From Chitinophagales bacterium (lineage in GTDB: Bacteria > Bacteroidota > Bacteroidia > Chitinophagales > Saprospiraceae): a stretch of DNA of 64,000 bases. Position numbers and translations under genes: made by a program. Below, one piece after another: positions 2,845 to 11,596 of the stretch (position 1 is its first letter; every line of letters starts with the position of its first letter). The stretch is taken from contig JAAFJY010000006.1 in the NCBI GenBank assembly GCA_013299105.1, positions 1 through 64,000 on the forward strand, read 5' to 3'. Below the pieces are notes generated by a model, which searched no databases, had not been told where the DNA came from, and saw only the letters and a list, made by a program, of their open reading frames with translations.

Positions 2845-5800
2845 CTACTCCACCTTCATCACCCCATTCATGATCCGCCAATGGCCTGGAAAAGTACATA
2901 CATAAGGGTACTCACCAGGTTTGGCAGGGGCGGTAAACCGCAAACGTACTGTCTGATCGGGATTGACTAGACTGGTTGAAAACAATACTTCTGGGCTTTC
3001 AGGAACATAGTTTTTGCTGGCTCCATCCGGGTCGGGGATCATTTTATCGGCTGCTTTGCCAATTTTTTCCAGCGACTTGGGCCTGCCAATCACGAGGTTA
3101 TGCTGCATGGCATCGGGGTTTTCAAATACAATTTCCACCGTTTTACCTGCTTTGACAGTAAACGTTTTTTGGTCAAATTGCAACATTTCCCGGATCGCTT
3201 TGAGTTTTACAGTTTGTACCGAAGGATCATTTTCTTCCTGTTTCTTCAAGATGTCCCAAGCTTGCATTAGGCGGGTTAAACGATCTTTGTTCAAGCCTGT
3301 ACTTGCAGCCAAAAGTGAATTCAAGTAGTTTTTGTCGGCATCGGCAGCAGTTACCTTTTTTCGGTAATTCCAACCTTCGCTGATCCCTTTTAAGATGGCA
3401 TCAAATCCCTCGGCATCCAGTTTTTGCGCATTTTTTAAATGATCCACCACCTCCGAAACCGAGGCCAGCGAGGCATTGCTCCGAATGGCTTTGGTCAAAA
3501 CATATTGTGCCATACTCTGCGACAAAGCAAAGGTGATTTTTTTAGTCGAGGTATTGTTTGCCTCACTGCCTTCGGCAATGGTATTGGCTTTATCCACCAC
3601 CACCATAAAATTGTATTCTCCTGCTTGTTCACCACTGACAGTAATGTTGCCTGTCCAGGGGCCATTTGAAACTTTGGTGATGGTCACGGTCTCCCCAGCT
3701 TTGACGCCTTCGTTGTGTACCAGACTAACCATATCGATCAACTGCCCTTTGCCTTCAAAACGTATGTTCAAGGGCAAAACAACACCTTTGGGAACATCCA
3801 CTCCGCCTTGATTGCTCACTTCAACGGAAACCGTAACCCGTTCGCGGGGTATAGGGTTGCTTGGCTCAATTTTGATGTTGCTGATCATCAAATCAGGCTT
3901 GGTTGGTGAAGCAAGGGGCTGAATTTTAGGCTCGGTTTTGGCAGTCATTGCGGCATGGTCGTGATGCCCAGCAGCATTGTTCATCGGCTTGGCATTTGTA
4001 GCGGCTTTTGCCTGTAGCTTGGCAAATACTTTTTTCAATAATCCTGGATTTTTGCCCAGAATATTGGCATACGCGTCGGGCAACCAGCGGTCATTCAAGT
4101 CTTTTGAAGTGTCAAGTGCCTGTAAAATAAGGTATTCAATTTCACTATTCAAGGGGATTTCGCTGATGGCCAAAAGGGTATGGAGCACTACCAAGGGTTC
4201 CTGGTCTTCCAGGGTTTTGTTTTTCAGCAGCAGGTCAATGTTCTCTTTACTGCGTGGCAAAATTTGTACCGCCGTTTTTCGCACCGCAGGGCAAGGGTGT
4301 TTCAATGCCTCCATCACCACGTTCAAAGCCTCCCCTTCGAGTGCGTTTAGTCCCTGCAAAGTCCAAAGCGCGTGAATGGCTGGGGCATTGATGCCGATTT
4401 CATCCACCGATTTATCGCGAATTAAGGTCAACAGCCCTGGTACGACGTCTTTTTGCCCCCTTTCCACCAATAGCCTTTGAGCATGGCTGCGCCAAAATAG
4501 GTTGGTGTTTTTCAGCGCTGCGAGCAACTCTTGAGGCTTGTCTTTGGACAATGCTAGCGCTTGATACGCCGCAGCCTCTTTGTAGCTCACCCGGTAAATG
4601 CGCCCGCGGGTGTAATCCCTTAAATCGGTTTCATAAGCATTGCCTGCTCCCATCACGAAACCTTCTGGACGGGGATTGTGCTGGATGATGAAACTGTACC
4701 AATCGGCCACCCATACGGCACCGTCCGGTCCTACTTCCGCAAAAACGGGCGAAAACCATTCATCCGCACCAGCCATTAGGTTGAACCCCTCCACGTCTTT
4801 GTAGCTGGTACCACTTTTGCTCAACACATTCTGGTGCAAAATATGCCCAGTAGGTTCCGCCACAAAGGCAATGTTGTTCCAGTATTTTTTGGGAAAAGCC
4901 CTAGCGGTGTACACGTTGTGTCCGGCAGCGGCAGTAAATCCCCCAAATACATCCACCTGGCGTATTTTAGGGGTAATGGTTTTCATGTCCTTGTGGGTAT
5001 CGATGCTGGTACTGCCATTGTCGATGCCATTAGCGGAGGGGTAAAACTGGTTTGGAATAGCCATGTACCAGCCGTGGGAGTTGTTGGCCGTTGAGCCAAA
5101 CACTTCGCCAGTTTCATTAAAACCCAGGCCCCAAGTGTTATTCGATGTTCTGGTCATAAACTCCAGCTTGCTCCCATCTGGTTTGAAGCGGAAAAAACCC
5201 TGGCTAAAGTGCAGGGTATCACCACCACCTACCAAGCCTTTGAAGCCAGAATAACCTACCGAACCCCAAAGCCAGTTGTCAAAGCCATAATGCAAATTGG
5301 AAGGCCCCGCGTGGGTATCAAAAGTACCGAATCCCGTAAAAAGCACCTGCCGCAGATCGGCTTTGTCGTCGCCATCGGTGTCTTTCAAAAAAAGCATGTC
5401 TGGGGCCTGAGAAACCACCAAACCACCATTGCTGAATACCATGCCCGTGGGAATGCTCAAGCCTTCGGCAAAACGGGTGAATTTATCGGCTTTGCCGTCT
5501 TTGTTGGTGTCTTCGCAGATGAGGATGTAATCGCTGCCACCTTCCGGTTTTCGCTCATTGGGGTAATCTTTGGTGATGAGTACATACATGCGGCCCCGTT
5601 CGTCCCAGGAGATGGCGATTGGGTGCATCACGTTAGGCTCGGCGGCAAAAAGCTCCAAATTGAACTCCACTGGCACTTGAATATGCTTCATGCTTTCTTC
5701 AGGTGACAAGGGATCCTGGCGGTATTGAATTCCGGGTCTTTTTTCATAATTTGGCAGTTTGGCTTCCCGATATACAAAAGGTTCGGGTTTCAAGGCGGCG

Positions 5801-6519
5801 TGGGCCTGTCGGGCTTCGTCGCTTACCGCCCACAGGATTCCACGCAGGAGCAAAGCATGAAAACCCTCATTTTGCCAAGTGTTGGCATCGTGCCCGTAGG
5901 CAGTGTAAAAAACCCGTCCCTTGCCGTAGCTGCGGGTCCAGGTGTAGGGCTCGGTTTTGGCGTTGGGTTTGTCTTTGAATTGATCAGCTTTGATTTCGCG
6001 TTGGGCCAAAACGTTGTTGTCGGGTTGCAATTTGCTGTGCAAATACGTTTCGTCCAAAACTTTGAACGACCTCAAGCCCTGCATGATGAAGTGCCCGGGC
6101 TGAACGGTCTGCGTTTCGATGCTGTCCATCGTGTGCCGCCAAAACTGCCCGCCCACCATTTTGACATATTCACTCGAATTGCGAAAACAATACGACGCAC
6201 AGTGAATGGGCAAAATGCCTTTGCCAGCAGCCACATAGGCCAGCAAGTCTTTTTCCGCAGCAGGGGGCAGGCTGTCCCAGTTGGCATAAATCATCAAGGC
6301 GTCGTACCTGTTCAGGTTAGCCAGGTTCAAATCCGACAACTGATCGGTATAGGTGAAATTGATGCCTTTATCGCCCAAGGCCGACATGATCCAAGGCAGG
6401 CGCTCGACGGGGCGGTGATGACCATTGTCGCCAAGGAAAAGGACCTCCAGGCGGCGGGCTTTTTGAGCCGAAAGGCCCGTGACACAAAGGAGCAGAGAAA
6501 GAATGAGAAGCTTTTTCAT
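2845..6519 (-). CDS. Secreted ThuA / dehydrogenase-propeller / HEAT / CARDB / azurin-like fusion protein
   Basis: A 1,224-residue exported protein with signal peptide (residues 1-18, ends LSAQ). A ThuA-like glutamine-amidotransferase fold spans about 24-238. A beta-propeller of the soluble sugar dehydrogenase / 'membrane-bound dehydrogenase' type spans about 290-690 and carries calcium-loop motifs DTNKDGKAD and DTDGDDKAD. HEAT-like helices follow to about 850, then a His-rich linker (GHHDHAA), a CARDB Ig-like domain at about 873-998, and a C-terminal cupredoxin at about 1115-1224. The cupredoxin keeps an azurin-like copper site: HNLVIG plus CTFPGHWRIM (Cys, His, Met spacing as in azurin). No CxxCH haem motif is present, although relatives often carry a cytochrome c domain. 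Last gene of the sugar operon; role in periplasmic sugar oxidation is inferred. Confidence 0.85.
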   Translation of the reverse strand: MKKLLILSLLLCVTGLSAQKARRLEVLFLGDNGHHRPVERLPWIMSALGDKGINFTYTDQLSDLNLANLNRYDALMIYANWDSLPPAAEKDLLAYVAAGKGILPIHCASYCFRNSSEYVKMVGGQFWRHTMDSIETQTVQPGHFIMQGLRSFKVLDETYLHSKLQPDNNVLAQREIKADQFKDKPNAKTEPYTWTRSYGKGRVFYTAYGHDANTWQNEGFHALLLRGILWAVSDEARQAHAALKPEPFVYREAKLPNYEKRPGIQYRQDPLSPEESMKHIQVPVEFNLELFAAEPNVMHPIAISWDERGRMYVLITKDYPNERKPEGGSDYILICEDTNKDGKADKFTRFAEGLSIPTGMVFSNGGLVVSQAPDMLFLKDTDGDDKADLRQVLFTGFGTFDTHAGPSNLHYGFDNWLWGSVGYSGFKGLVGGGDTLHFSQGFFRFKPDGSKLEFMTRTSNNTWGLGFNETGEVFGSTANNSHGWYMAIPNQFYPSANGIDNGSTSIDTHKDMKTITPKIRQVDVFGGFTAAAGHNVYTARAFPKKYWNNIAFVAEPTGHILHQNVLSKSGTSYKDVEGFNLMAGADEWFSPVFAEVGPDGAVWVADWYSFIIQHNPRPEGFVMGAGNAYETDLRDYTRGRIYRVSYKEAAAYQALALSKDKPQELLAALKNTNLFWRSHAQRLLVERGQKDVVPGLLTLIRDKSVDEIGINAPAIHALWTLQGLNALEGEALNVVMEALKHPCPAVRKTAVQILPRSKENIDLLLKNKTLEDQEPLVVLHTLLAISEIPLNSEIEYLILQALDTSKDLNDRWLPDAYANILGKNPGLLKKVFAKLQAKAATNAKPMNNAAGHHDHAAMTAKTEPKIQPLASPTKPDLMISNIKIEPSNPIPRERVTVSVEVSNQGGVDVPKGVVLPLNIRFEGKGQLIDMVSLVHNEGVKAGETVTITKVSNGPWTGNITVSGEQAGEYNFMVVVDKANTIAEGSEANNTSTKKITFALSQSMAQYVLTKAIRSNASLASVSEVVDHLKNAQKLDAEGFDAILKGISEGWNYRKKVTAADADKNYLNSLLAASTGLNKDRLTRLMQAWDILKKQEENDPSVQTVKLKAIREMLQFDQKTFTVKAGKTVEIVFENPDAMQHNLVIGRPKSLEKIGKAADKMIPDPDGASKNYVPESPEVLFSTSLVNPDQTVRLRFTAPAKPGEYPYVCTFPGHWRIMNGVMKVE

Positions 6520-6535
6520 AATAGGATTGCTGTGC

Positions 6536-7663
6536 TTATTCAGCAGCTTGTTTAAAATCAGGCAAAGTCAAAATCTTCCCGCCTTGCAAGGCTGATTCGT
6601 GAGCGAGAATCCCCACCGAGGTCCAATTGGCAGATTGCCAGGCATTGGGGAAAGGATCGCGGTCCTCGACCAATGCCATCAAGAATTCATGTACCAAATG
6701 CGGATGCGAACCCCCGTGCCCGGCCCCTTGGGTAAAGCTCAGGTGGGTGTTTTCGGCAATGTCATACACGCCCTGGGTAGTAAACCGTTGGATGCCCTCT
6801 GGCAATAAATGGGCAAAATCCGGCACTGTTACCCGTTCAGGAATCTCGTGCTCTTCCTTTTTTGCGGTATGAATCACAGCTTCTTCTCCTTCAATCAAGG
6901 GCCACTCAAAGGATTTTTTACTGCCGTACACCTCAAAACTCTCGCGGTACTGGCGCGCTACATCGAAGAGCGAACGGTAAACATAAGCACTCAAGTCGCT
7001 GTCTTTGAACTTGATGTGTGCCGATTCAACGGCAAAAGGAGAGTTGTGAATTTTGGCCAAGTCCTCGTGAATGGTACCTGAACCAAAGCAAGAAACGTAC
7101 TCAGCTTCCAGCTTCAACAGGCCCGCAACTGGCCCTACGCAGTGGGTAGCATAATGCATCGGCGGCAAACCAGGCCAATAATCGGGCCAACCATCCATGT
7201 CTTGCTGGTGCGAGGCTTTCAGGAATTGTACTTTGCCCAACTCCCCTTTTTCGTGCATTTCCTTGACGAACAAAAACTCGCGGCTGTACACCACGGTTTC
7301 CATCATCATGTATTTTTTGCCTGTTGCGTTGCTCAGTTTCACAATTTCCATGCACTCCTCCACAGAGGTAGCCATTGGTACGGTGCAGGCCACATGTTTT
7401 CCAGCTTTCAGGGCTTTCAGGGTTTGCTCCGCGTGATTGGGAATAGGCGAATTGATGTGGACTGCATCAATGTTGGGGTCTTGGAGCAGTTCGTCGTAGT
7501 TGGAATAGCGCTTTTCAATGTTGAAAGCGTCGCCAATTTTGTGCAAATTTTCCTCATTGCGTTGGCAAATCGCGTACATGTTCGCATTGGCATGGCGCTG
7601 GTAAATGGGGATGAACTCGGCCCCAAAACCAAGTCCAACGATTGCGATGTTTATTTTTTTCAT
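6536..7663 (-). CDS. Gfo/Idh/MocA family NAD(P)-dependent oxidoreductase
   Basis: Rossmann-fold dehydrogenase acting on sugars or cyclitols. The N-terminus IAIVGLGFGAEF is the dinucleotide-binding glycine motif. Family features follow: the DAVHINSPIPNHAEQ segment and, around residues 95-100, GKHVACTVPMA, which resembles the EKP catalytic-Lys region but with TVP in place of EKP. The start chosen is the ATG before KKINIAIVG; an upstream ATG at 7714 would add 17 residues that overlap the neighbouring gene. It lies 16 bases before the large fusion gene and 47 bases after the epimerase gene, so the three are probably co-transcribed. Substrate is unknown. Confidence 0.9.
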   Translation of the reverse strand: MKKINIAIVGLGFGAEFIPIYQRHANANMYAICQRNEENLHKIGDAFNIEKRYSNYDELLQDPNIDAVHINSPIPNHAEQTLKALKAGKHVACTVPMATSVEECMEIVKLSNATGKKYMMMETVVYSREFLFVKEMHEKGELGKVQFLKASHQQDMDGWPDYWPGLPPMHYATHCVGPVAGLLKLEAEYVSCFGSGTIHEDLAKIHNSPFAVESAHIKFKDSDLSAYVYRSLFDVARQYRESFEVYGSKKSFEWPLIEGEEAVIHTAKKEEHEIPERVTVPDFAHLLPEGIQRFTTQGVYDIAENTHLSFTQGAGHGGSHPHLVHEFLMALVEDRDPFPNAWQSANWTSVGILAHESALQGGKILTLPDFKQAAE

Positions 7664-7710: not shown

Positions 7711-8535
7711 TCAAAGGAATTTTCTGAGGTAAGTGATGCTGTCACGCATCAACTGGGCTTCGGATTCAAACATGGTTCGCCAGATGTTGGCAGCGGGCAA
7801 CTTCGTACTGAAAGCTTCGATACTGAGCATGCCCTGGTAATCCATCGACTTTAAAGTGTCGATGATTTTGGCAAAATCCACATGACCTGTGCCAATGGTG
7901 CTGCGGTCGTTTTCGGACAATTGCACATGCACGAGCCGATCTCCACATTTTTGCAAAGCAGCGGGAATATCCTTTTCTTCAATATTGGCGTGAAAGGTAT
8001 CAAACATGATTTTGCAATGCGGGTGATCTACTTCGTCCACAAAGCGCAACATGTCATCGGTGCAGGTAAAAAGGTAGGTTTCAAAACGATTCAGGTACTC
8101 GATGCCCAAGGTGATGTTTTTGGTAGCAGCATATTCAGCAAGGGTGCGAATGTGTGTCACTCCTCTTTGCCACTCTTCATTGGTAGCAGCTTGGCCTGTG
8201 AACACACCCAAAGCGGAATGAATCGGCCCCATCAAGAGGCTTGCACCCAATACAGCTGCACAGTCCAGGGCTTTTTTGTTGTTGTCCAGGGCATGGGCAC
8301 GCATCGCTGCGTCTGCACTGAGTGGGTTGGCATCGGGGCCATTGATCGCTACGGCCAGTTTTTGCAAGCCTAAATCGTCCAATTTTTGACGCCAAATGTG
8401 CCAATCTTCAGGATTTAAGTTAAAAATGGGCACTTCTACCCCGGCAAAACCCAAGGCTTTGATTTCATCCAGTACTGGAAAAAGTGCTGGCGTGATGTCG
8501 GTACCCCAGAGCAAAAGGTTCATTCCGATCTCCAT
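7711..8535 (-). CDS. Sugar phosphate isomerase/epimerase (xylose isomerase-like TIM barrel)
   Basis: A 274-residue TIM-barrel protein of the AP endonuclease 2 / D-tagatose 3-epimerase type. The expected metal and catalytic residues are visible: Glu in TLGIEYLNRFE, Asp and His in IMFDTFHAN, the HVQLSENDR strand and the terminal Glu in LSIEAFS. Such enzymes epimerise or isomerise ketoses or inosose. It is the first gene of the minus-strand operon and faces the AraC regulator across a 130-base promoter region, so carbohydrate-responsive control is likely. Confidence 0.9.
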   Translation of the reverse strand: MEIGMNLLLWGTDITPALFPVLDEIKALGFAGVEVPIFNLNPEDWHIWRQKLDDLGLQKLAVAINGPDANPLSADAAMRAHALDNNKKALDCAAVLGASLLMGPIHSALGVFTGQAATNEEWQRGVTHIRTLAEYAATKNITLGIEYLNRFETYLFTCTDDMLRFVDEVDHPHCKIMFDTFHANIEEKDIPAALQKCGDRLVHVQLSENDRSTIGTGHVDFAKIIDTLKSMDYQGMLSIEAFSTKLPAANIWRTMFESEAQLMRDSITYLRKFL

Positions 8536-8603: not shown

Positions 8604-8665
8604 ACTGTATTTTGATCTTTTTTGGCCGAAACCAGTGGTTTTTTTGTTAAAATTTGAGTACCAAG

Positions 8666-9541
8666 ATGAAACCCTTGCTCAAAAAATCCTTGGAAAGCAT
8701 CAACCAGTCGTACATCGTGCGGTACTTGAAAGAACCGCATTTCGATCCCAACTGGCATTTTCACCCCCATTATCAATTGTTCACGGTTTTGGAAGGCAGC
8801 GGAACCCGTTTTATCGGCGACGATATTCGCCATTTCGAGGCGGGCGACACGGTTTTTTTAGCCCCCAACATGCCACACCTGTGGCGCAGCGATCGTGCTT
8901 ATTTTGAAAAAGACTCAGGTTTACGGACCCAGGGCATTGTGGTTTATTTTACGGCAGACTTTTTAGGTGCGGAGTTTTTTGAAAAACCAGAGATGTATGT
9001 CATCAAGCAATTTTTGAGCCAGAGCGAAAGGGGCTTGGATTTGACCAACAGCGCCAGCTTGAAAGCAGCGATTGTGGAAGATTTGATCGAGTTGAATACC
9101 CTGAATGGTTTTGAGGGGGTGCAAAAACTGCTGTCTATTTTACACAAACTATCCATTTGCACGGATCACCCATTCATCGCCAGCGTCAATTACGAGAACA
9201 CCCACAAAGTATCCGAAACGGAACGGATGCGCTTGGTACACGAATACGTACTCAAGCACTACAAAGAGAAAATCAGCCTCACAGCCGTAGCCGCTTTGGC
9301 CAATATGACTGAAGCCGCTTTTTGCCGCTATTTCAAAACCCGCACCAACAAAACTTTCTCCGATTTTGTACGCGAAATCCGAATTGGCCATGCTTGCAAA
9401 CTGCTATTGGAAGGAAAAATGTCGATTGCGCAGGTGAGCTATGAAAGTGGCTTCCATACTGTGTCAAATTTTAACAATCAATTTAAGGCCTTGAAAGGCC
9501 AAAGCCCTAAGGAGTATCGGCGGGTGTATGTGCGGGATTGA
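8666..9541 (+). CDS. AraC family transcriptional regulator
   Basis: About 291 residues. The N-terminal cupin-like sensor half has the typical pattern HFDPNWHFHPHYQLF and GDDIRHFEAGDTVFLAPN. The C-terminal third is a double helix-turn-helix DNA-binding domain: LTAVAALANMTEAAFCRYF, then IAQVSYESGFHTVSNFNNQF, then the closing GQSPKEYRR. The ATG at 8666 is preferred; a TTG at 8654 would add four residues. It is transcribed divergently from the epimerase/oxidoreductase operon, so it probably senses a sugar and controls those genes. Confidence 0.93.
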   Translation: MKPLLKKSLESINQSYIVRYLKEPHFDPNWHFHPHYQLFTVLEGSGTRFIGDDIRHFEAGDTVFLAPNMPHLWRSDRAYFEKDSGLRTQGIVVYFTADFLGAEFFEKPEMYVIKQFLSQSERGLDLTNSASLKAAIVEDLIELNTLNGFEGVQKLLSILHKLSICTDHPFIASVNYENTHKVSETERMRLVHEYVLKHYKEKISLTAVAALANMTEAAFCRYFKTRTNKTFSDFVREIRIGHACKLLLEGKMSIAQVSYESGFHTVSNFNNQFKALKGQSPKEYRRVYVRD

Positions 9542-9554
9542 GGATGAACTATTT

Positions 9555-10064
9555 TCACTCCCCTTGGTCCAGTATATTCTTCACGCGCTCAATTGGCAGG
9601 TCCGACATTTGCGAGATGGCTTGCAAGTCTTTTCCTTCATTAAGCCAAAACCTGAAGACTCTCGACAGGGATTGTATTACCCTTTCCTCCGTTAAAACGA
9701 GTTCTTCATTCTCTTTGGTCCGCTCTTCATTCTCTTTGGTCCGCTCTTCATTCTCTTTGGTCCGCTCTTCATTCTCTTTGGTCCGCTCTTCATTCTCTTT
9801 TCTTAGCCTTTCATTCGTTTGCTTGAGCACTTTGTTTTTCTTCTCCTGAGCTAAGTTTTCCTTTATTATTTGCTGCGCCAAATGGAAGTATTCGTCAGCT
9901 TTCTTCAATGCCTCCTCTTTCTGAGCGCGCTCATGTTCTACTTGCATGCGGATGTAGTCCTCCATTTCAGAGATGAGCATGTCTTCGAATCGAATCTGCT
10001 CCATCAATTTATACTCCTGATCTGACAATTGTACTCTTTGCATAATTAGTAGGTATTTATTCAC
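9555..10064 (-). CDS. Free-standing copy of the Rpn nuclease C-terminal region (candidate regulator/antitoxin)
   Basis: A 169-residue protein with no nuclease domain. From its second residue it aligns with the C-terminal part of the upstream Rpn-type protein: NKYLLIMQRV versus NKYLPIMQRL, EDMLISEMEDYIRMQVEHER shared exactly, then KKADEYFHLAQQ, a charged heptad repeat (KENEERT), and an ending LDQGE in both. Its GTG start overlaps the TGA stop of the Rpn gene (GTGA at 10064-10061), which implies translational coupling. A 3' duplication of the nuclease gene explains the arrangement. Known Rpn loci in enterobacteria make a short C-terminal product that inhibits the full-length toxin; an equivalent role here is inference. 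An ATG seven codons in is an alternative start. Confidence 0.75.
   Translation of the reverse strand: MNKYLLIMQRVQLSDQEYKLMEQIRFEDMLISEMEDYIRMQVEHERAQKEEALKKADEYFHLAQQIIKENLAQEKKNKVLKQTNERLRKENEERTKENEERTKENEERTKENEERTKENEELVLTEERVIQSLSRVFRFWLNEGKDLQAISQMSDLPIERVKNILDQGE
9707..9801. repeat. 21-bp minisatellite in the Rpn C-terminal paralogue
   Basis: Four perfect tandem copies of a 21-base unit beginning CATTCTCTTTGG, plus a partial fifth. On the coding strand each unit encodes seven residues (KENEERT), so copy-number change keeps the frame and lengthens a coiled coil. Confidence 0.9.
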
Positions 10065-11212
10065 TCTCCCTGGTCTAGCATATCCTTCACGGAGTCAACC
10101 GAAAGGTTCATCATTAGGGAAATGGTTTCAAGGTCTTTTCCTTCATTGAATAAAACCCTGGCGATTGTCGAGAAGCGTTTGCTCGACTCTTCTTGCTCCT
10201 TACTCAACTCTTCTTTCTCCTTGCTCAACTCTTCTTTCTCCTTGCTCAACTCTTCTTTCTCCTTGCTCAACTCTTCTTTCTCCTTGCCCAACTCTTCTTT
10301 CTCTTTGCCCCACTCCTCTTTCTCTTGCTCCAAAGCCACTTTTTCATTGTTACTTTGCTGGGCCAAATGAAAAAACTCATCGGCTTTCTTCAATGCCTCC
10401 AGTGTCCGTGCACGTTCATGTTCTACTTGCATGCGGATGTAATCCTCCATTTCGGAGATGAGCATGTCTTCGTATAGCATCTGCTCCATCAATTCAGGCT
10501 CATGGGTAGCCATGTGTAACCTTTGCATAATTGGCAGGTATTTGTTGGGTATTTCTCCCTGTTTTAATTCTAAAAAATGGGCATCCTCTCCCGCTTGGCT
10601 TTGATCAAAAACACTCAGTAAGGCCTCCAGTTCATTGCGGCGCTTGTCTTTTAGTGCCTTGATGCACACCACCAGGCAATCGTGGGTGAGGCATTCGATA
10701 AACGGATCGTGCTGTGCGATTGGTTCACCCGAATATGCATCCCAATATAAACGTTCTATTTTGATCACTGGAACATCAATGATATTTTCCAGATCGTAGC
10801 CTAGAAAATAGATATTGATGATTGGAATTGGCCGTTTGATGGGATTGCCATTTTCATCCTCGTCAAAGTAAAAATTCCCAGGATCTGCATATTGCCTCCC
10901 AAGGTAGCCTCTAAACCTGAAACTATCTGTTGGAATTTTCACTTTTTGGACTTCAAGCAAAGTAAGCTTGGTTCCGTACGGTGTTTTGATTTTAGCCGAA
11001 AAATCCAGGAAATAGGGCCTCAATCCATAAATGGGCTTCTTGAACTCGAATTCAGATTCTTCACCCATTTTAGGCGCAATGGCCTCAGTAGGGCGAAACT
11101 CCAATTCCAGGATTTCTTCTCCTAAAATGGCTCCTAAGAGCAAGCGAGCAGATTCCAAGTCTTCCATCAGAAACTTAAACACGACATCATAAAGGGGATT
11201 GGCAATAAGCAT
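10061..11212 (-). CDS. Rpn family recombination-promoting nuclease / PD-(D/E)XK transposase-like protein
   Basis: About 383 residues from the ATG before LIANPLYDVVFKFLMED, the usual start of this family; an upstream ATG at 11263 would add 17 hydrophobic residues. The N-terminal PD-(D/E)XK nuclease-like region covers roughly residues 1-230 and includes FLDFSAKIKTPYG and TLLEVQKVKIP, the conserved D...E-x-Q core. Then come a helical region, a coiled coil built of seven tandem heptads (EKEELSK) and a helix-turn-helix-like end (GKDLETISLMMNLSVDSV). Proteins of this family act in horizontal transfer and, in enterobacteria, in phage defence. The stop overlaps the start of the C-terminal twin. Flanks are repeat-rich. 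Confidence 0.88.
   Translation of the reverse strand: MLIANPLYDVVFKFLMEDLESARLLLGAILGEEILELEFRPTEAIAPKMGEESEFEFKKPIYGLRPYFLDFSAKIKTPYGTKLTLLEVQKVKIPTDSFRFRGYLGRQYADPGNFYFDEDENGNPIKRPIPIINIYFLGYDLENIIDVPVIKIERLYWDAYSGEPIAQHDPFIECLTHDCLVVCIKALKDKRRNELEALLSVFDQSQAGEDAHFLELKQGEIPNKYLPIMQRLHMATHEPELMEQMLYEDMLISEMEDYIRMQVEHERARTLEALKKADEFFHLAQQSNNEKVALEQEKEEWGKEKEELGKEKEELSKEKEELSKEKEELSKEKEELSKEQEESSKRFSTIARVLFNEGKDLETISLMMNLSVDSVKDMLDQGE
10181..10327. repeat. 21-bp minisatellite in the Rpn gene
   Basis: Seven head-to-tail 21-base units, the middle ones matching GCTCAACTCTTCTTTCTCC-TT, encode heptads of the type EKEELSK on the minus strand. The unit differs in sequence from the array in the downstream paralogue but has the same seven-codon length. 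Confidence 0.9.
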
Positions 11213-11596
11213 ACTGGCTAATTTTTTAACAAAAATAAAATATATTTTTAAAATAAAAAACAAAAATGATATTATTCTAAAAACTTCGGAGACGTTTCCG
11301 CAGCTGAGAATTATCTGATTTTCATGATGAATATGAAGCGTTTATGACCGCGAGGCGGGCCAATTCTCTAATTCTTTGAAATTCTTGTTTAGACAAAAAT
11401 TGGTCAACGTTATTCAAGTAATTCTGTAATTCTTCAATTCTGAAAATTCTGGTTTGGGAAAAAAATTCTGGTTTAGGAAAAAAGCACCTCGCTTGATTAC
11501 CCAGACCGCGTTCACCGAAGTTTTCAGTATTATTATCGTCTTGAAAAATTATTTCAGATGTGATAATCCAGCCGAGTGGTTCCGAGACCAAAAACC
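11213..11596. other. Intergenic gap upstream of the Rpn gene
   Basis: An AT-rich stretch (11220-11280) likely holds the Rpn promoter. The rest is a long modular repeat (11353-11494). The open frame on the minus strand through this repeat is built from repeat sequence and is not treated as a gene. Confidence 0.5.
11353..11494 (+). repeat. Modular dispersed repeat, copy R3 (longest AATTCTG tract)
   Basis: Modules in order are AATTCTCTAATTCTTTG, TTGTTTAGACAAAAA, TTGGTCAACGTTATTCAAG, a four-unit tract of AATTCTGT-like 8-mers, GGTTTGGGAAAAAAA and a repeated TTCTGGTTTAGGAAAAAA. The tract occurs both before and after the GGTCAACGT box, so modules are reiterated inside one copy. Confidence 0.7.

Follow-up and report, generated by a model that had tools for sequence, protein, structure and literature searches.

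A type-1 copper domain in place of cytochrome c at the end of a ThuA/propeller protein of Bacteroidota, a predicted exported redox enzyme

The closest described relatives of the protein reported here are exported proteins that combine a propeller of the TIGR02604/PF23500 (DUF7133) type with HEAT repeats and a C-terminal cytochrome c, and that carry the automatic name 'PVC-type heme-binding CxxCH protein'. This large family is almost uncharacterised: among the open-licence papers searched, TIGR02604 or DUF7133 is mentioned only in one study (PMC5342196), where Lac161_ORF7 (AGW45552, Verrucomicrobia), a protein of TIGR02604-HEAT-cytochrome c layout encoded on a metagenome clone, was found after purification to hydrolyse lactose (Km 1.8 mM), the cleavage of lactose by a dehydrogenase-like protein being left unexplained. 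The exchange of cytochrome c for a cupredoxin is already known in nitric oxide reductases, where subunit II of eNOR bears a cupredoxin in place of haem c (PMC8756737). Here we describe a copper form of the haem-named family, represented by a gene at 2845..6519 on the minus strand of a 64,000-nucleotide stretch of a Chitinophagales bacterium (GCA_013299105.1, contig JAAFJY010000006.1, positions 1 to 64,000), referred to below as the window. Its product shares the propeller-HEAT layout, predicted export and a C-terminal putative redox domain with the PVC-type proteins, but it has an azurin-like domain and no haem, a ThuA head, a CARDB domain and an altered presumed active site; Lac161_ORF7, with the same propeller and HEAT region, ends in cytochrome c and has no reported ThuA domain. 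No open-licence paper pairing 'ThuA domain' with 'cupredoxin' was found. With a probability of roughly 0.6, we read the window protein as an exported enzyme with a redox function in keto-sugar or glycoside metabolism; the type-1 copper domain would replace cytochrome c as its built-in electron relay.

The open reading frame, whose ends lie exactly at 2845 and 6519, starts with ATG and encodes 1224 amino acids. Orthologs were found at 51 loci in other genomes (Saprospiraceae, Spirosoma, Dyadobacter, Lacihabitans, Arcicella, Chitinophagaceae and others), and the full-length alignment comprises 43 of them at 55-89% protein identity. A sequence-only reading of the window had proposed a ThuA domain and propeller joined through HEAT and CARDB modules to an azurin-like domain, with no haem, and the Pfam search bore out this layout. 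A Sec signal peptide, MKKLLILSLLLCVTGLSAQ (6463..6519, recognised by eye and by regular expression; all features lie on the minus strand unless stated), precedes a ThuA domain (residues 27-231, 5827..6441) that belongs to its family both by profile (PF06283, 134.7 bits) and by fold (4jqs, VIA Z 22.3; also 4e5v and 1t0b by Foldseek/VIA). The six-bladed propeller (residues 272-647, 4579..5706) scores 411.6 bits with PF23500 and 251.5 bits with TIGR02604, above the curated NCBIfam cut-off of 122.2. It is followed by a HEAT-repeat region (residues about 650-815, 4075..4572; HEAT_2, 30 bits), which is helical in the AlphaFold model (residues 25-1224, 30 sequences, pLDDT 74.6), and by a CARDB domain (residues 874-993, 3541..3900; PF07705, 36.9 bits; Foldseek match 3idu) that is missing in many relatives. 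A poorly conserved linker, helical in the model and with no invariant position among orthologs (residues about 994-1090, 3250..3540), leads to the copper domain (residues 1103-1224, 2848..3213). No CxxCH motif occurs in the protein or in its orthologs from the 51 loci. In 14 of the 43 aligned orthologs a lipobox-like signal, identified in the same manner, takes the place of the plain Sec signal; the protein is probably periplasmic, and a membrane-anchored lipoprotein in those 14. Viral contigs held no relative, and plasmids held propeller or ThuA pieces only, none spanning 80% of the query.

The C-terminal domain is a type-1 cupredoxin domain with a putative copper site, as judged from profiles and modelled fold: PF00127 (Copper-bind) scores 44.9 bits against a cut-off of 21.2, a PDB profile search places it nearest to auracyanin A (2aan, E=1.5e-23), a second auracyanin and azurins among solved structures, and Foldseek superposes the domain on 2aan with a TMt of 0.88 and a root-mean-square deviation of 1.6. 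The predicted ligands are His1140 (3100..3102), Cys1208 (2896..2898), His1213 (2881..2883) and the axial Met1217 (2869..2871), that is, the His of HNLVIG and the Cys-His-Met of CTFPGHWRIM already singled out by the sequence-only reading. Conservation of these ligands among orthologs, on which that proposal had been staked, is complete: all four are unchanged in 43/43 full-length orthologs and in 36/36 copper domains from a first profile survey, and CTFP[GA]HWxxM forms the C-terminal end of every complete ortholog. In the stretch ahead of the domain, by contrast, not one residue is invariant; such constancy of the ligands is far beyond chance. Like auracyanin A and azurin, the domain combines the cupredoxin fold and the His-Cys-His-Met set with azurin spacing in the C-terminal loop (C-x4-H-x3-M); it differs in being part of a 1224-residue protein and in scoring 37.7 bits with the azurin equivalog TIGR02695, under the cut-off of 105.1, and it is thus better called a type-1 cupredoxin domain than an azurin.

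What such a tail is for is best seen from its natural exchange with haem. The copper-domain profile was run on 198 Bacteroidota genomes in the first survey, and a second survey covered 395 genomes; the first yielded many long fused frames, and all 32 above 600 amino acids bear a propeller. The copper architectures found were ThuA-DUF7133-HEAT(-CARDB)-copper, DUF7133-HEAT-copper-ThuA, GDSL-DUF7133-copper and a propeller-copper form of about 650 residues; the permuted form, with ThuA at the C-terminus, was observed at loci L105, L107, L108, L125 and L187. In the ThuA-first group, L181 from the second survey is a ThuA-DUF7133-HEAT-Cytochrom_C protein with a CFTCH motif that is 72.6% identical over 854 residues to L183, a ThuA-DUF7133-HEAT-Copper-bind protein, and a tree of the ThuA-first proteins nests this haem form within the copper-form group (100/100). 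The GDSL-DUF7133 group has haem in L058 and L142 (Cytochrom_C by Pfam) and copper in L112, and the smaller propellers (about 650-660 residues) have haem in L126, from the window's own genome, and copper in L116, the two being 60% identical. That relatives carry cytochrome c where the window protein has copper, as had been suggested at the outset, is therefore observed in L181 and others. Across 86 propellers the tail is copper in 52, haem in 25 and both in none, and a tree of 82 rows needs six changes of haem/copper label, four of them forced by supported branches (four and three, respectively, in an earlier set of 67 rows). As far as these trees go, this shows that copper and haem tails were swapped several times on the same enzyme type. 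The exchange is the strongest evidence on the role of the tail, which because of it is likely to be electron transfer; most likely the tail acts as an exchangeable electron outlet. As a side observation, the window's own genome also encodes a propeller-copper protein (L127, C17:104879-105226) that is 47% identical over 532 residues to the haem-ended L126 (C23:199478-199891), a swap pair in one cell.

The alternative that the copper domain stores, delivers or senses copper or merely binds, while the propeller and ThuA domain work independently of it, appears highly improbable. CARDB domains of other proteins are binding or adhesion modules, and this general knowledge, together with the long and variable linker, would suit it. 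The exchange with cytochrome c on an approximately 73% identical backbone and the mutual exclusion of haem and copper point instead to electron transfer, and an azurin-type ligand set is retained without exception. A precedent is eNOR, in which a cupredoxin likewise substitutes for cytochrome c as the electron entry; eNOR is a reductase with electron input, whereas electron output is presumed for the window protein, an enzyme of sugar type, and the exchange recurs within its one family.

The copper domain is not always fused to the enzyme. Four loci (L139, L140, L180 and L182) have a separate downstream cupredoxin gene, directly adjacent in three: in L140, L180 and L182 a ThuA-DUF7133 protein with neither haem nor copper is followed after 49, 45 and 144 bp, respectively, by a gene for an exported cupredoxin, beyond which come a TIM-barrel gene and then a GFO gene (all on one strand in L140), and in L139 a distance of 1.2 kb separates the enzyme gene from the cupredoxin gene downstream. 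The fused proteins of L124 and L184 branch among these split forms in the ThuA-first tree, and the fused domain of L124 shares 61-64% identity with the cupredoxins that L139 and L140 encode as separate genes; on these comparisons this is a direct fusion/fission pair. Further arrangements were observed. At L109 (2381-4964) and L121 (4153-6798) the propeller gene is directly preceded by one for an exported protein of 360 residues, which has a cupredoxin at its N-terminus and a 220-residue C-terminus of no known kind, another split arrangement. At L166 (1943-4693), on a plasmid of Ketogulonicigenium vulgare, a gene for a small c-type cytochrome stands just upstream of a DUF7133 protein without haem, a gene order that mirrors, with haem, the split copper form; the possible identity of this protein as L-sorbosone dehydrogenase could not be confirmed. 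At L179 (3016-5901) the ThuA-DUF7133 gene is broken between ThuA and propeller by one TAA within the profile match, and no copper or haem end occurs within the stretch examined.

The propeller itself is most similar to sugar dehydrogenases that use pyrroloquinoline quinone (PQQ). The modelled domain has its best VIA matches in the PQQ sugar dehydrogenase 3a9g (Z 25.2), AA12 6h7t (25.1) and soluble glucose dehydrogenase (sGDH) 1qbi (24.4), PQQ sugar dehydrogenases scoring 23-25 overall, and hhalign matches a diverse DUF7133 alignment to the GSDH (PF07995) proteins of the same genome with a probability of 98.6 and E 1.2e-15. A narrow propeller alignment gave no PDB match by profile search and no hhalign signal, and the diverse alignment was used instead; a model of the propeller alone with 29 close orthologs was poor (pLDDT 57.7) and was set aside.

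Several findings weigh against reading the protein as an oxidoreductase with an internal relay. DFPase and its engineered variants reach VIA Z scores of 22-23, near those of the dehydrogenases, so the fold by itself is no proof of oxidation, and blades 5-6 of the propeller are modelled at low confidence. For Lac161_ORF7, the sole characterised relative, the reported activity on lactose is hydrolysis and not oxidation (PMC5342196), and a long, variable linker precedes the copper domain, so that intramolecular transfer is at most putative. Furthermore, cofactor residues are replaced and a cofactor gene is missing. The PQQ site is formed, in sGDH numbering, by H144, R228, N229, R406 and R408. At these columns the window protein has A404 (adjoined by H403), N460, N461, S590 and V592, N461 being the sole residue kept among the five, and PqqE is absent from the 99.99% complete genome (best score 62 bits, cut-off 381).

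These replacements also bear on the possibility that the propeller is a classical PQQ-dependent sugar dehydrogenase of the sGDH/AA12 type, passing electrons from imported PQQ to copper. The structural and profile matches given above, the retained N461 and the haem-bearing DUF7133 proteins, which keep the H144 and R406 columns in 22/24 cases each, speak for it; yet the ThuA clade has A, N, S and V at the H144, R228, R406 and R408 columns, and the missing PqqE points the same way, so classical PQQ chemistry is unsupported and this possibility seems quite unlikely to us. On the sequence evidence PQQ is not supported as the propeller cofactor, and any cofactor it uses is unlikely to be PQQ in the binding mode of sGDH. 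The replacing residues are themselves strongly conserved (DTHAGP, NNTWG, EW.[SA]PV), and this suggests that the site was re-tooled and did not simply decay. An idea that the changes accompany copper was rejected, as haem-ended L181 bears the same DTHAGP, NNTWG and EWFSP; the changed residues therefore track the ThuA clade. The 'dehydrogenase' and 'sugar oxidation' of the sequence-only reading are its weaker parts: the propeller has the fold of PQQ sugar dehydrogenases, but most of the sGDH cofactor residues are replaced. The proviso attached to it, a propeller without cofactor-binding residues, applies to PQQ as held in sGDH and leaves a sugar-enzyme function in general standing, given the operon and the characterised haem relative. 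Compared with sGDH, aldose sugar dehydrogenase and AA12, its best structural and profile matches, the window protein shares the six-bladed propeller but lacks four site residues and has extra domains. Sugar oxidation by the propeller is plausible.

The neighbourhood points to the pathway. Upstream, after a gap of 16 bp, comes a GFO/IDH/MocA oxidoreductase (6536..7663; PF01408, 89.6 bits), then a xylose-isomerase-like TIM barrel (7711..8535; PF01261, 151 bits) nearest to ketose 3-epimerases (PDB 7cj9 and 7cj4), and a divergent AraC-family regulator with a cupin domain on the plus strand (8654..9541; PF12833, PF07883), which is kept in orthologous loci. The GFO ortholog, at 80-94% identity, adjoins the gene in 46 of the 51 orthologous loci, and the other five loci end within about 1 kb upstream; the operon of TIM barrel, GFO/IDH/MocA oxidoreductase and window protein, with its divergent AraC gene, is maintained across Bacteroidota. 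More distant ThuA-copper loci have the same genes in a different order. A GFO gene was not found within the stretch examined at L103, L104, L139, L174-L177, L181 and L183, and near the 17 haem-type loci L141-L157 there is no GFO ortholog, only one 28% paralog. ThuAB of rhizobia is tied to 3-keto disaccharide metabolism, as cited in PMC10433430 (its reference 50). From this link and the operon content, we infer that the gene set points to keto-sugar metabolism. In the periplasm, the propeller, possibly with the ThuA domain, would use a sugar or glycoside as substrate, and a respiratory acceptor would receive the electrons by way of the C-terminal copper domain. In the cytosol, the epimerase-like TIM barrel and the GFO/IDH/MocA oxidoreductase, of NAD(P) type, would process the product under AraC control.

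The same evidence can be turned towards glycoside cleavage, in which a keto-sugar would be formed only transiently and the redox domain would merely reoxidise or prime a cofactor, the net reaction being hydrolysis. The lactose hydrolysis by the haem relative fits a sugar or glycoside substrate class; for lactose, 3-keto routes in the periplasm have been proposed or are known (PMC9007349), and a keto-sugar route could reconcile a dehydrogenase-like fold with lactose cleavage; the rhizobial ThuAB link would agree as well. We nevertheless regard net cleavage as unlikely for the window protein: the ThuA clade has no activity on record, Lac161_ORF7 belongs to another subfamily and its study gave no mechanism, and net hydrolysis requires no catalytic redox outlet. 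An exported redox enzyme with a copper relay is the reading we retain. A broader view, whose odds we put slightly short of even, is that of a periplasmic sugar-enzyme family with a plug-in outlet, cytochrome c or type-1 copper, repeatedly exchanged and either fused or neighbouring, in which the ThuA clade has a redesigned non-PQQ propeller site within a keto-sugar operon.

For annotation, the copper form lacks CxxCH yet scores above the TIGR02604 cut-off, and the automatic name 'PVC-type heme-binding CxxCH protein' would thus be wrong for the whole copper branch. The repeated exchange on close backbones amounts to a natural experiment on how electrons leave periplasmic sugar enzymes, one that sister pairs such as L181 and L183 make directly testable.

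Two minor observations concern other genes. In the window, 9555-11263 holds two adjacent, related open reading frames with central short charged repeats (ERTKENE and SKEKEEL units), apparently tandem duplicates differing in repeat number. Elsewhere in the same genome, L003 (C5:103553-104110) encodes a long protein in which two short-loop cupredoxins in tandem (CEPHAHAAM and CEPHASGGM) are followed by several repeated domains that are CHRD-like by eye.

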